Source: a virus. From it: a DNA stretch of 57,255 nt. Location: positions 1 through 57,255 of the IMG/VR virus record IMGVR_UViG_3300049489_000428. One strand, written 5' to 3'. A model generated the notes under the pieces. It was given only the letters and a program-made list of their open reading frames with translations. It ran no database searches and was not told where the DNA came from. The position numbers were made by a program, and so were the translations under genes. Of this stretch, positions 1,282 to 13,988 are shown one piece after another. How positions within the stretch are numbered: position 1 is the stretch's first letter; every line of letters starts with the position of its first letter.

Positions 1282-1566
1282 CTACATAAACCCGTAACGC
1301 ACGATGTAAGCGAAAATCACAACCAGAATGCACCGCATGAAACCTGTAACAAGCGAGAATGTATAATCTTGATCCGCTTTAGTCGCTTTGAATGTGAGAA
1401 CGGCAACAAGCGTTGACCCTACGTAGGCTTGCAACATCGTGACTCTAGGAACGCCATAAAGGTCTGGCATAATCAGATTCCACGAGTGAGCCGCCGCCCA
1501 GGCCCAAAAGAAAACCAGAATGACGGTAAAAACGATTCCAAGAACAATCTTAATGGTCTTTTCCAT
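1282..1566 (-). CDS. multi-spanning small membrane protein, 94 aa
   Basis: Predicted helices at about residues 5-27, 42-62 and 72-92, with a short polar loop containing HSWNLIMPDLYGVPR. No family recognised. It starts two bases after the stop of the prepilin-like gene, with AAGG 11 bp upstream, so the two are probably translated together. The pair could form a membrane module, for example acting on the envelope or on type IV pili; this is inference from adjacency. Confidence 0.65.
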   Translation of the reverse strand: MEKTIKIVLGIVFTVILVFFWAWAAAHSWNLIMPDLYGVPRVTMLQAYVGSTLVAVLTFKATKADQDYTFSLVTGFMRCILVVIFAYIVRYGFM

Positions 1567-1568
1567 GA

Positions 1569-1694
1569 TTACCAGACCTTGCTAATGAAGTGCCAAGCGA
1601 CGTAGACAAGGCCACCCAGAATTGCAAGTTTGACAACGATAGCGACAACGATGATGAGTTCGACGACGGTAAAGCCCGATTGAAAACGCTTCAT
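1569..1694 (-). CDS. 41-aa prepilin-like protein (type IV pilin N-terminus only)
   Basis: Translation starts MKRFQSGFTVVELIIVV, continues as a hydrophobic helix and ends ...HFISKVW. It has the hallmarks of a class-III signal peptide: short basic leader, Gly at -1, Phe at +1, Thr at +2, Glu at +5, then a hydrophobic helix. These are the features read by prepilin peptidase PilD. The globular pilin domain is absent. An AGGGGA ribosome site lies 8 bp upstream, and the gene sits 1 bp after the upstream stop and 2 bp before the next start. A role in blocking or capping type IV pili or pseudopili is inferred, not shown. Confidence 0.7.
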   Translation of the reverse strand: MKRFQSGFTVVELIIVVAIVVKLAILGGLVYVAWHFISKVW

Positions 1695-1695
1695 T

Positions 1696-1881
1696 TTACT
1701 TTCCCCTGTTAGTGGAACGACGAGCCTTGATGTCGCGGTTCGCTTGCGCGCGAGCCGCAGCGTTGGATGCTTGTTGCCGAAGCGTACCGTTCGCCCGCGC
1801 TTTCGCGGTCTTACCGGAACCGGACAGGGGTTCCAAACCCTGAGCGATACGCCATGCGTTGATCTGTTCTTGCTTGGTCAT
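1696..1881 (-). CDS. small basic protein, 61 aa
   Basis: MTKQEQINAWRIAQGLEPL followed by a disordered Ala/Arg/Lys-rich tail ending RRSTNRGK. It is strongly basic, so nucleic-acid binding is plausible. The start at 1881 is chosen for AAAGGA 8 bp upstream. The frame can be extended to a TTG at 1935, but no ribosome site supports that. First gene of an operon with the prepilin-like and 94-aa membrane proteins, driven by the promoter at 2069-2096 through a 180-nt leader. Confidence 0.65.
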   Translation of the reverse strand: MTKQEQINAWRIAQGLEPLSGSGKTAKARANGTLRQQASNAAARAQANRDIKARRSTNRGK

Positions 1882-2154: not shown

Positions 2155-2219
2155 GGTACGCTCCGCGGCGCGTAAGTCCTTGATTTTAAAGGGTTTTTTC
2201 TGTCAAGTCATCTATATGA
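2155..2219 (+). repeat. five-copy conserved control block, copy 2
   Basis: TACGCT at 2157-2162, CGCGGCGCGTAAGTCC, a stem CCTT-TGATTTTA-AAGG type segment followed by TTTTTT, and TCATCTATATGA at 2208-2219. The spacing to TCAT is again 51 bp. The -35 region here is TTGTTT with a 15-bp spacer, so this promoter copy is weaker. A degenerate Fur-like sequence follows at 2237-2251. Confidence 0.65.
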
Positions 2220-5949: not shown

Positions 5950-6046
5950 ATTAGGGGAGGGCGGTTAGTTGACCTGGTGGTATGGCATAGCTACAGGACC
6001 AACTTTCGCGAAAAATTTATAAAAATTTCTGACCCTAAATTGCAAA

Positions 6047-6124
6047 GGGCCGCATGGGCCGCATGGGCCGCATGGGCCGCATGGGCCGCATGGATTTATT
6101 ACCCTAAATTGCAGAGGGCCGCAT
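6047..6124. repeat. 9-bp tandem repeat upstream of terminase
   Basis: Five perfect head-to-tail copies of GGGCCGCAT (6047-6091) and a sixth at 6116-6124. The flanks are also duplicated: CCCTAAATTGCA before each cluster and GGATTTATTACC after each. This GC-rich iteron sits just before the small terminase gene in an AT-rich region, the usual place of a packaging (cos/pac) signal. Confidence 0.75.
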
Positions 6125-6680: not shown

Positions 6681-7909
6681 TGCCCCAAAATATATTTAAA
6701 GATCCCACAACAGGGAATGAGATCAAAGTACCAAAAGTAACAAAAAAACTAATTAAAGCAAATCAGAAGTTTGATACTTTATACAATTTAGGAACAATGG
6801 AATTAAATGCTGGTAGGCATAGTACAGCATTCGACTGTTTTAAAGCAGCACTAGAGCTTGGTGTCTCAAAGGAATGCCTGCTAAATATGTCCACCTGTTA
6901 TAAAGTTCTAGAGAACGAAGGTAAAGCTAAAGAGATTCTAGCTAGCATAATTAAAAACTATCCAGAATTTCCACTAGCGTATAACAATTACGGACTTATT
7001 AGATATGATGATGGTGAATTCGATGAAGCTATCGGGCACTATAATAAAGCTATCTCCTTATGGCCGGAATATGCTGACGCTCACTGGAATCACGCCTTAG
7101 CGTTACTTATTAAACGTTTTGATACTGGAGTACCAAATCCTTTAGCATATCAAGAGTTTGAATGGAGATTTAAAAAATCAAACGCTGTTGCGTTAGCTGA
7201 TGTAACTTCTCCGCGCTGGAATGGTGAGTCGCTTCATGGTAAAAAGCTGCTATTTATGTGTGAGCAAGGATTTGGTGATATGTTCATGTTTATGAGATAT
7301 CTCGAATTGTTACCTATGGATTCCGTATATGTGCACTTTCCTAAAGAGGTTAAAGATTTTCTAGGAGCGTATCAGTATGTGGAGTTTAGTAATATTCCGC
7401 ATGACTATCATATTCCAATTATGTCTTTGCCTAATGTTATGGGCGAGTATTTTCCTTCAGAGCCTTACCTCGATTTTTCTTCGAGTGCATGGAACTTCGG
7501 CGGTGGTAAAAACATTGGTATAGTATGGAAAGGTAATCGCGCTCACGCAAATGATAGAAATCGCTCTATGCATTTTAGAGATTTCTTCCCACTATTTGGT
7601 TTAGGAAAGGTTTGGTCTTTGCAGTATGGAGTTCCTGTTCAGCGACATGCAAAGGATATTCATGAATTGGAAATCCGTAGTTTTATTGATACTGCCAACT
7701 ATATTGCTGGGTTAGATCTAGTGGTTACTGTAGATACTTCTGTAGCTCACTTAGCTGGAGCAATGGGTAAGCCTGTGTTAGTGGTAATGCCAACTCGTGG
7801 GTTGGATTGGAGATGGGGTTCTACAGGTGATAAAACGCCTTGGTATCCTACGATGAGACTTTGTAGGGATAGAGGTCAGATGATTAAGATGGCGTCGGAG
7901 ATGTTATGA
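6680..7909 (+). CDS. TPR-containing glycosyltransferase (OGT/GT9-like)
   Basis: 409 aa. Residues about 25-155 carry TPR-like repeats (FDTLYNLGTMELNAGRHSTA; YNNYGLIRYDDGEFDEAIGH; WPEYADAHWNHALALL). The C-terminal half has the GT-B nucleotide-sugar site pattern of heptosyltransferase/OGT-like enzymes: GIVWKGNRAHANDRNRS, VTVDTSVAHLAGAMGKPVLV and DWRWG...PWYPTMRL. A TPR-GT fusion is the layout of protein O-glycosyltransferases. It sits between the terminase genes with tight overlaps to a methyltransferase. A substrate such as a virion protein or host glycan is inferred. Confidence 0.7.
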   Translation: MPQNIFKDPTTGNEIKVPKVTKKLIKANQKFDTLYNLGTMELNAGRHSTAFDCFKAALELGVSKECLLNMSTCYKVLENEGKAKEILASIIKNYPEFPLAYNNYGLIRYDDGEFDEAIGHYNKAISLWPEYADAHWNHALALLIKRFDTGVPNPLAYQEFEWRFKKSNAVALADVTSPRWNGESLHGKKLLFMCEQGFGDMFMFMRYLELLPMDSVYVHFPKEVKDFLGAYQYVEFSNIPHDYHIPIMSLPNVMGEYFPSEPYLDFSSSAWNFGGGKNIGIVWKGNRAHANDRNRSMHFRDFFPLFGLGKVWSLQYGVPVQRHAKDIHELEIRSFIDTANYIAGLDLVVTVDTSVAHLAGAMGKPVLVVMPTRGLDWRWGSTGDKTPWYPTMRLCRDRGQMIKMASEML

Positions 7910-10965: not shown

Positions 10966-12103
10966 GGAAGCTGGTACATCAATTACCAATAACAATAATA
11001 CTTTGTATTATTTAAAAGCTTACCAAGAATTAGATATTGTTAGACGCGGTGTAGACATGATTGTAAATGCTACTGCGTCTTTCGATTATGACGTACAAGA
11101 GCAGTTAGCTGGAGTAACTCCAGTTGTTGGTGGAATGAGAGTTAAGAAGTTAAATGTACTTCTAAACTACCAACCAAACCCGTTTCAAGATATTAGTACT
11201 TTTAGAAGATTGATTGTAATGGATCTTATTCTAGAAGGTAATGCATTCATTTACTTTGATGGCGTTGATATTTACCATTTGCCGGCCTGTAATATAGAGA
11301 TTCTTACAGACCCTAAAACGCTGGTTTCGGGATATCGTTACAGTTCATCAAAGACTGTATTTGAACCAAAAGAAATTATACATATTCAGGATAACGCAGG
11401 TTCTACAATTTATCGTGGAGAACCTAGACTTAAAGCTGCTGAGACGAGCATTCGTACAATTATTACAATGCTCCAATTTCAGGAGAATTTCTTTAAGAAT
11501 GGTGCAGTTCCTGGACTAATTATCACCTCACCAAATCCTTTGGGAGATAAAATTAAAGAACGTATGCTGGCCGTGTGGTCACAACGTTACAACCCTAAGA
11601 ATGGTGGAAAACGTCCGCTCATACTTGATGGTGGAGCAGATGTCAAAAATTTAGGGCAAGGTAATTTTCAAGAACTTGACTTTGAAAACTCTATTGGCTC
11701 TAAAGAGCGTTCAATTCTAAAAGCTTTAGGCGTACCTCCAATTCTATTAGACGGAGGAAATAATGCAAATATTGCACCAAATCTTAAATTATTCTATTTA
11801 GAAACCATACTGCCTATTGCTAAAGCTATTTCCTCCGCTTTCGAACGTTTCTTTGGATATAACCTAGACCCTGAAACTGGAAGAATTTCGGCACTTCAAC
11901 CTCAGATGGGCGAAGCAGCCGCTTACTACTCTACGTTAGTAAATGGTGGTATTATTTCACCAAATGAAGCTCGTGAAGAACTAAGATACGAAACAAGACC
12001 AGAATTAGAAGATGTTAGAGTACCGCAAAATATTGCTGGTTCAGCAGTAAATCCATCACAAGGTGGGAAGCCACCAGCACCAACAAAGGATATAAATGAG
12101 TAA
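10895..12103 (+). CDS. portal protein (HK97 family)
   Basis: 402 aa. Phage_portal family features: YLKAYQELDIVRRGVDMIVNATASFDYDV near the N-terminus, YQPNPFQDISTFRRLIVMDLILEGNAFIYF, and LKALGVPPILLDGGNNANIAPNLKLFYLETILPIAKAI in the clip/stem half. Dodecameric gate of the capsid and docking site for terminase. The start overlaps the HNH gene and the stop overlaps the protease-capsid gene by 8 bp. Confidence 0.88.
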   Translation: MSLWNDTKMWLSEKLNPVQPIISEEAGTSITNNNNTLYYLKAYQELDIVRRGVDMIVNATASFDYDVQEQLAGVTPVVGGMRVKKLNVLLNYQPNPFQDISTFRRLIVMDLILEGNAFIYFDGVDIYHLPACNIEILTDPKTLVSGYRYSSSKTVFEPKEIIHIQDNAGSTIYRGEPRLKAAETSIRTIITMLQFQENFFKNGAVPGLIITSPNPLGDKIKERMLAVWSQRYNPKNGGKRPLILDGGADVKNLGQGNFQELDFENSIGSKERSILKALGVPPILLDGGNNANIAPNLKLFYLETILPIAKAISSAFERFFGYNLDPETGRISALQPQMGEAAAYYSTLVNGGIISPNEAREELRYETRPELEDVRVPQNIAGSAVNPSQGGKPPAPTKDINE

Positions 12104-13988
12104 GAAAGTATTTACACTTTCTGCTCCACTACTTAAAGTCGAAAAGGCCTCACAGTCTGACGACTCAACGGATAAACCGTCTATATTTATTGAAGGGTAT
12201 GCAAATACTATTAATAAAGATAGAGTTGGTGATGTAATTGTCGCGGAGGCCTGGACAAAGGGTGCTCTTACCAATTATTTAAAGAATCCAATTATCTTAG
12301 GGTTCCACGATCACTCAAATCCAATTGGAGTAGCAGAGCAGGTATCCGTTGATCCAAACGGATTAAAAGTTAGAGCAAGAATAAGTCCCGCAGCTGAGGA
12401 TGAGTACAATTTAATCGCCGATGGAGTTTTAAAGGCGTTTTCAGTCGGCTTCACTATTAAAGATGCCGAATATGATTCAGAAACAGACATTTTTTTAATT
12501 AAGGATGTAGAGCTATACGAGATTAGTGTAGTTTCGGTTCCTGCAAATCAAGACTGTATTTTCGAAATGGCTAAGTCATTTGAAAATTCGGCAGAATATC
12601 AAGATTTTAAGAAATCTTTTAGTAAAAAGTCCGTGGAGCCATCCACACAACAAGTTTCAAAGGAGAAAAAGTTAATGGATCCTAAAGATCTAGAACAGCT
12701 AATGAAGCAAACCGCAGAGAGCACAGCAAAAGCTGTTGCAGACGCAATTGCTCAAAAAGCTGCTGAAGAAAAAGCCGCTGCTGATGCGAAGGCTGCAGAA
12801 GAAGCGCAAAAACAAGAATTGATTAAGCTTGGTCAAAGTGGAGCTGAAAAGATTGTAGCAGAAGCTGAGAAGCGCATTGCTGAAGCCAATGGCGAAGCAG
12901 TTGGTAAGCTTCTAGGTGATCTTAAGAGCGAAATGCAAGCTCAGATTGATGAAGTCAAGAAGGCTGCTCAATCTAAGATGAATTTCAATGACAAGGGTGG
13001 AAACACAAATGAGCCCAGCATGGCTGAAAAGACCAGTGCTGTTCTTATGGCGAAAGCTCTTGGCGTTCCTATTACCGAAACTAAGTTCGGTAAGGAATTG
13101 ATTGAAAAGGCTGGACCTCACGTTGCTTCAGCTTATTGGGAAGATCAAGTATCTACCAACATGCAAGAAGAAATTCGCAGGCTTCTAGTTGTTGCTCCCC
13201 TGTTTAACACGATGCAGATGCCTTCAAGCATTCTTCGTCTACCAGTAAATCCTGAAGCCGGTTACGGTACATGGGTTGCTGCTTCTTCATTCGGTACTAC
13301 ATCATCTTCTGGTGCTGCTGGTACGCATGTATTGAAGGAATTAACACTTACCGCTTACAAACTAGCGACTAAGGAATTCCTGACATACGAAGAAGAAGAC
13401 GATACCTTCCTGGCGATTATGCCTATCGTACGTAACGCACTAGTGCGTCGTATGGCGAAGTCAACTGACCTAGCACTTCTACGTGGTGCTGGTAGCGGCG
13501 GCGACCCACTTAAGGGTCTCGGCGCTTGGGCAGCTGCCTCTGATGGTGTAACCGTTACTAACACAGCTAAGGCAACCGTTGCTAACCTAGCATCAGTTCG
13601 TCGTAAGCTTAATGTTTGGGGTATGAATCCTTCAGACCTAGTATTCATCGTTTCAACTGATGTTTACTTTGACCTTCTTGAAGATGCGGATTTCCGTACA
13701 TGGGATAAGGTAGGCGACAAAGCCACTATTCTTAACGGAGCAATCGGTCAAGTAAGTGGAACTAACGTTATTGTATCTGGCGAGTTTGCAGCCCGCGCTG
13801 CAGCCGCGGTTGGAGCAATCTGCGTTAATGCACGTAACTTCATTTTTGGACGTTATAAGAATCTACGTCTAGAAAGCGATACATTCGTCGAATCACAGAA
13901 TAAGATTCTGGTTGCGACTGAGCGTATGGCGTTCCAACAACTAAGCACTGTTGACGGTAATGCTGTTAGCAAGCTTGTTTGGAGCTAA
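12096..13988 (+). CDS. prohead protease fused to major capsid protein
   Basis: 630 aa in three parts. Residues 25-165: HK97-type prohead protease (IEGYANTINKDRVGDVI; LGFHDHSNPIGVAE with catalytic His; VLKAFSVGFTI with catalytic Ser; ELYEISVVSVPANQD). Residues 185-300: charged helical region (AADAKAAEEAQKQELIK), like a scaffold/delta domain. Residues 310-630: HK97-fold capsid (VSTNMQEEIRRLLVVAPLFNTMQM; LLRGAGSGGDPLKGLG; LESDTFVESQNKILVATERMAFQ). Normally separate genes; here one ORF supplies protease, scaffold and shell. Self-cleavage during maturation is expected. Confidence 0.85.
   Translation: MSKKVFTLSAPLLKVEKASQSDDSTDKPSIFIEGYANTINKDRVGDVIVAEAWTKGALTNYLKNPIILGFHDHSNPIGVAEQVSVDPNGLKVRARISPAAEDEYNLIADGVLKAFSVGFTIKDAEYDSETDIFLIKDVELYEISVVSVPANQDCIFEMAKSFENSAEYQDFKKSFSKKSVEPSTQQVSKEKKLMDPKDLEQLMKQTAESTAKAVADAIAQKAAEEKAAADAKAAEEAQKQELIKLGQSGAEKIVAEAEKRIAEANGEAVGKLLGDLKSEMQAQIDEVKKAAQSKMNFNDKGGNTNEPSMAEKTSAVLMAKALGVPITETKFGKELIEKAGPHVASAYWEDQVSTNMQEEIRRLLVVAPLFNTMQMPSSILRLPVNPEAGYGTWVAASSFGTTSSSGAAGTHVLKELTLTAYKLATKEFLTYEEEDDTFLAIMPIVRNALVRRMAKSTDLALLRGAGSGGDPLKGLGAWAAASDGVTVTNTAKATVANLASVRRKLNVWGMNPSDLVFIVSTDVYFDLLEDADFRTWDKVGDKATILNGAIGQVSGTNVIVSGEFAARAAAAVGAICVNARNFIFGRYKNLRLESDTFVESQNKILVATERMAFQQLSTVDGNAVSKLVWS

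Follow-up and report, generated by a model that had tools for sequence, protein, structure and literature searches.

A family of headless phage prepilins with a conserved tail, candidate inhibitors of type IV filament assembly

A 41-aa prepilin without a pilin head is encoded on the minus strand (1569..1694) of the window analysed here, a whole IMG/VR virus record of 57,255 bp from a T5-like siphophage (DNA polymerase about 47% and terminase about 50% identical to those of Demerecviridae). The gene belongs to a conserved family of headless prepilins, which we found in 34 further viral records and which comprises 35 distinct sequences of the GFT type. As judged from the sequences, the prepilin peptide may poison or block filament assembly, a reading that we hold tentatively and with slightly less than even confidence.

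The ORF is part of a minus-strand cluster of small genes. A Shine-Dalgarno sequence, AGGGG (1703..1707, minus strand), is located 8 nt 5' of the ATG, and the upstream ORF (1696..1881, minus strand), coding for 61 aa of no known family, has its stop 1 nt before this ATG, overlapping the interval between Shine-Dalgarno and ATG. On the other side, the ORF of a 94-aa membrane protein with two predicted TM segments (1282..1566, minus strand; phrog_2169, E 4.5e-7) begins 2 nt past the stop, which makes co-translation plausible, as the first-pass annotation had claimed. A conserved link between the two did not hold, since the next genes vary among carriers and few of them encode membrane proteins, and the 94-aa protein was rejected as a conserved partner. 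Membrane proteins of phages are grouped in phrog_2169 under the category moron or host takeover. The Shine-Dalgarno, the tight gene packing and the purifying selection on the family speak for probable expression of the 41-aa ORF. Ahead of its gene group, there is a promoter-like repeat (2156..2219, minus strand) with a putative promoter function. It is one of three near-identical 64-bp repeats (1071-1134, 2156-2219 and 2899-2962), each ahead of a group of small minus-strand genes. Two other features of the window were observed. A 630-aa ORF (12096-13988) apparently fuses the prohead protease and the major capsid protein, the same match covering two separate genes in named T5-like phages, and a short in-frame tandem repeat, read as PCGPCG or AAWAAW depending on the strand, is found between the two gene arms (about 5990-6110).

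The protein starts with the leader MKRFQSG (1674..1694, minus strand; predicted cleavage after Gly) and continues, after the expected cleavage point, as FTVVELIIVVAIVVKLAILGGLVYVAWHFISKVW. All features of a class III signal are present: a basic leader up to Gly-1, Phe+1 (where prepilins have Phe or Met), Thr+2, Glu+5 (codon at 1659..1661, minus strand) and a continuous hydrophobic helix that includes the expected stretch of about 20 hydrophobic residues. The Pfam N_methyl profile PF07963 matches residues 3-20 with 21.5 bits against a curated cut-off of 21.2, and TIGR02532 scores 17.9 against 16.3, while in the six-frame search of the record the N_methyl score was 21.1 bits, slightly below the Pfam cut-off. 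Taken alone, the motif score of this copy is borderline. What sets the match apart from chance is that unrelated phages have homologues with the G/F/E positions unchanged and with a second, shared motif at the C-terminus. An ORF with a prepilin signal at exactly this position had been reported in the first-pass annotation, and both the N_methyl match and the conservation of G-1, F+1 and E+5 in homologous phages that were sought to support it have been found.

The AlphaFold model is a single helix (residues 10-40, mean pLDDT 92), and a fold search with this lone helix as query returned no match, an uninformative outcome. The mature part has 34 aa if cut at Gly-1, and consists of one helix up to residue 40 of 41, with neither alpha1-C nor a globular head. 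The earlier description of a prepilin mimic lacking the head is consistent with these data. That of a truncated pilin is not, as the protein is a member of a dedicated family, has a conserved C-terminal tail of its own and is devoid of the Pro22 region of pilins. This tail, HFISKVW (1572..1592, minus strand), which runs up to the stop codon, had previously gone unnoticed, as had Tyr24, a pilin-like feature, and the unusual presence of a Lys within the helix at mature position 15.

The family surfaced in a search that started from aligned short prepilins of phages. Seven matches were short ORFs aligning along the length of the window protein, all ending in HF-x-x-K-x-W followed by the stop. Viral contigs were then scanned for GFT followed, 61-91 nt on, by HFxxKxW plus a stop, demanding neither Glu5 nor an open frame. 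All the matches of the TAA form (14/14) and of the TAG form (6/6) are intact in-frame small ORFs, as are 13 of the 14 matches of the TGA form, the other one (contig L224) being a small tail protein without GFT. The same scan in 257 Gb of bacterial and archaeal genomes, carried out with the TAA form, gave seven chance matches and no intact member. The tail pattern alone occurs once per carrier record and twice in one record, is absent from 44 other viral records, and has a single occurrence, a chance fragment, among 398 genomes from one phylum. A host origin of the tail thus has no support in the 257 Gb of genomes (TAA form) or in the 398 genomes of one phylum (tail alone). We do not claim outright a virus-only distribution, given that the bacterial scan covered the TAA form and one group of carriers is probably temperate. 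Other queries gave negative results. The window neighbours (94-aa and 225-aa proteins) have no direct relatives when used as queries, and 45 T5-like records sharing the terminase (about 57% identical) contain no N_methyl ORF and no homologue in the syntenic region. With the 41-aa query, tblastn found no match in named phages, probably due to low-complexity masking; other members of the family did reach named phages. Headless phage prepilins, prepilin mimics or the HFxxKxW tail are not described in the literature searched, in which subscription journals were thinly covered.

The C-terminus of the family is fixed as H-F-[IVLM]-x-K-[FWYLV]-W-stop, alongside GFTxxE in most members. All 39 aligned sequences have the H, F, K and W residues, an invariance imposed by the search pattern itself, and 29 of these 39 match PF07963 at E<=0.01. 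Glu+5, on the other hand, was left free in the scans and is present in 33 of the 35 distinct GFT members, being lost in two. In the 25 members with a mature part of 34 residues, no acidic residue was found elsewhere in positions 3-27 (0/600) and no proline in the same positions, and 22 of them have an aromatic residue (Tyr, Phe or Trp) at position 24; Tyr24 is a conserved position of pilins too. The pooled pN is 0.30 versus a pS of 0.73 in 71 close pairs (pN/pS about 0.4), so the headless-prepilin family is under purifying selection. Mature lengths fall into classes of 34 (n=25), 31 (n=6), 38 (n=3) and 35 (n=1) residues, stepping by about one helical turn, and a crude phase test (P about 0.014) is only suggestive in this respect. 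When the family profile was searched against PDB, the matches were type IV pilins, the best being short Geobacter 'geopilin' chains and MshA/PilA. The PHROG matches of the family are confined to its prepilin part.

The carriers include T5-like, T4-like and temperate phages, as well as records of 250-360 kb, and the terminase profile phrog_2 has matches in 20 of the 33 carrier or tail-protein records searched. Two of the carriers are named phages, Aeromonas phage Ahp1_CNU-2021 (Straboviridae; QIW87140.1) and Aeromonas phage vB_AdhS_TS3 (Demerecviridae), where the gene is unannotated (about 7483-7596). Its absence from two Shenzhenvirus sister phages of TS3 is the kind of patchy presence typical of an accessory gene. 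Carriers of one group, with 65-67 kb, have a CI-like repressor near the headless-prepilin gene and are probably temperate. No prepilin peptidase (Peptidase_A24) was found in the 33 carrier or tail-protein records, and a phage-encoded enzyme was therefore rejected; the carriers would depend on that of the host.

The HFxxKxW tail is also found without the prepilin signal in four records, three of which (L240, L241 and L224) have tail proteins only. In Alcaligenes phage QDWS595 gp61, in the uncultured phage LR756500 and in contig L224, it follows a short membrane helix without GFTxxE. A 210-kb record (G095, contig L260) contains the prepilin form and a non-prepilin form (L260b) of the HFxxKxW protein together, the two forms being located at 160286-160396 and at about 170784-170807 of the contig. 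The last 15 residues of this second copy are similar to those of the window protein. Going by the three tail-only records and L260b, the tail can probably work without the prepilin signal, and the target of such relatives is perhaps, in some cases, other than the pilus. As the scans demanded GFT, the counts given here are those of the GFT forms.

If these peptides act on type IV filaments, the window peptide would be inserted in the manner of a prepilin and cleaved, perhaps also N-methylated, by a host peptidase of the PilD/GspO type. With Phe1 and Glu5 kept and the head missing, it could dock at the platform protein (PilC/GspF type) or join the nascent filament, and the fixed aromatic and basic tail, at the periplasmic face of the membrane, might hold the platform locked or terminate the filament. 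The host would then lose its pili, its competence or its type II secretion during infection or lysogeny, and the phage would gain from the exclusion of competing phages. Beyond the conserved prepilin signal and the assembly residue, all the steps are inferred by us, and we assume that the host of the window phage has a type IV pilus or a T2SS. In its wider form, this proposal states that virus-specific headless prepilins, processed by the host prepilin peptidase, poison type IV filament assembly by mimicking subunits, have HFxxKxW as a dedicated C-terminal element and have spread horizontally among unrelated tailed phages of up to more than 350 kb; we find it conceivable, and put it forward with a reservation a little stronger than that expressed above. 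Gly-1 is essential for the processing of pilins by the peptidase, and Glu5 is always dispensable for it; Glu5 mutants form no homopolymeric pili (PMC4471445). The conservation of Glu5 in spite of being dispensable for cleavage suggests an interaction after cleavage, which may be platform docking, contact with a pilin subunit or methylation, and favours an assembly poison over a peptidase decoy. Such a decoy, a substrate that saturates the prepilin peptidase, would be in line with a short and complete cleavage motif in a cheap peptide, and with carriers that do not have their own peptidase. We regard it as quite improbable, considering that Glu5 is unneeded for cleavage (PMC4471445) and the conserved tail would be left unexplained.

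The main rival of the assembly poison is a module of membrane helix plus HFIxKFW acting as an effector on a non-pilus target of the inner membrane, with the prepilin leader as an optional N-terminus among several. The relatives with the same tail and no GFT (QDWS595 gp61, LR756500, L224 and the second copy of G095) are what this explanation would predict, and the invariance of H, F, K and W, albeit imposed by the pattern, agrees with it. The points against an assembly poison are the tail-only relatives with L260b, the two members without Glu5, and the Lys inside the helix of the window copy. As to the effector module, a generic leader would not need GFT and Glu5, seen together in 33/35 distinct sequences, nor a helix length in register with the tail, and we consider this explanation unlikely. 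It is improbable that the peptide is a functional minor subunit, added to the host filament to alter rather than stop its function. Headless pilins can build filaments, with Flp-type prepilins down to 44 residues (PMC4471445), and full pilins are present in cyanophages, but the phage gene is usually found in one copy per genome, no other pilus genes were seen, and the window protein has Leu after E5 instead of the E-Y-G signature of Flp, scoring 16.6 bits with Flp1_like, under its cut-off of 33.5.

Two other readings do not relate the gene to pilus function. A small lysis or envelope membrane protein of holin or antiholin type, with a convergent likeness to pilins, would also be short and have a single helix, and weak matches to spanin profiles were found in two relatives. 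It seems very improbable to us, since G-1, F, T and E5 occupy the exact pilin positions in a helix otherwise free of acidic residues, and no conserved lysis genes were seen in the neighbourhoods of the carrier genes. The borderline N_methyl score of the window copy and the 45 T5-like relatives without an orthologue could be expected from a chance hydrophobic ORF or a decayed host pilin. This is scarcely credible, being contradicted by the family data: 35 distinct sequences under purifying selection, with a tail not found in any host pilin.

This is a small family with clear limits. Two of its carriers infect culturable Aeromonas, and G-1, E5 and the tail offer a separate testable prediction per residue class. 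If the assembly-poison reading is true, the entry of pilins into the platform and the termination of filaments could be probed with these peptides by simple genetics. The established targets of phage anti-pilus proteins are PilB, PilZ and PilC, and subunit mimicry, if true, would be another route. Tip, Aqs1 and Zip of Pseudomonas phages shut down pilus extension via PilB or PilZ (PMC11656802), being peptides that act on these proteins, unlike pilin mimics. The nearest functional precedent is PfsE (PA0721), a 30-aa protein of Pf filamentous phages whose binding to PilC blocks type IV pili and twitching (PMC8764522). It is likewise a tiny phage membrane peptide, but its described feature is the YXWGW motif, absent from the 41-aa protein, and a prepilin signal is not described for it (PMC8764522).

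Prepilins encoded by phages are also known from cyanophages (ACG-2014f, AIX31304.1, PHROG 3433) and from other phage N_methyl ORFs, which differ from the present family in being longer, with C-terminal regions and without the HFxxKxW tail. Pilin-like phage proteins of about 80-100 aa that form a recurrent family and have SRCIEGYKFVVGERGQARQILDEFGKGVRC as their tail were observed in L012, L018, L040, L045 and L092, in L244 (1495-1746) and in Synechococcus phage BUCT-ZZ01 (UTS52068.1). Very short prepilins of 28-53 aa without the tail are found in L166 (3197-3331), L167 (3165-3251) and L169 (3124-3267 and 3326-3487), among them a tandem pair in a 345-kb contig. Phages seem to have evolved headless prepilins on at least two occasions. 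A small or missing head is shared with the Geobacter short pilin ('geopilin domain 1', PilA-N) and the minimal pilins of Flp/Tad systems, but geopilin has 61 aa, Flp has the E-Y-G signature and its own Tad machine, and both are bacterial filament subunits without the HFxxKxW tail. With type IVa pilins and pseudopilins (PF07963), the family shares Gly-1, Phe+1, Thr+2, Glu+5, the basic leader, the hydrophobic alpha1-N and the aromatic residue at 24, whereas it has no alpha1-C, head or Pro22, and stops at 31-38 mature residues with HFxxKxW.
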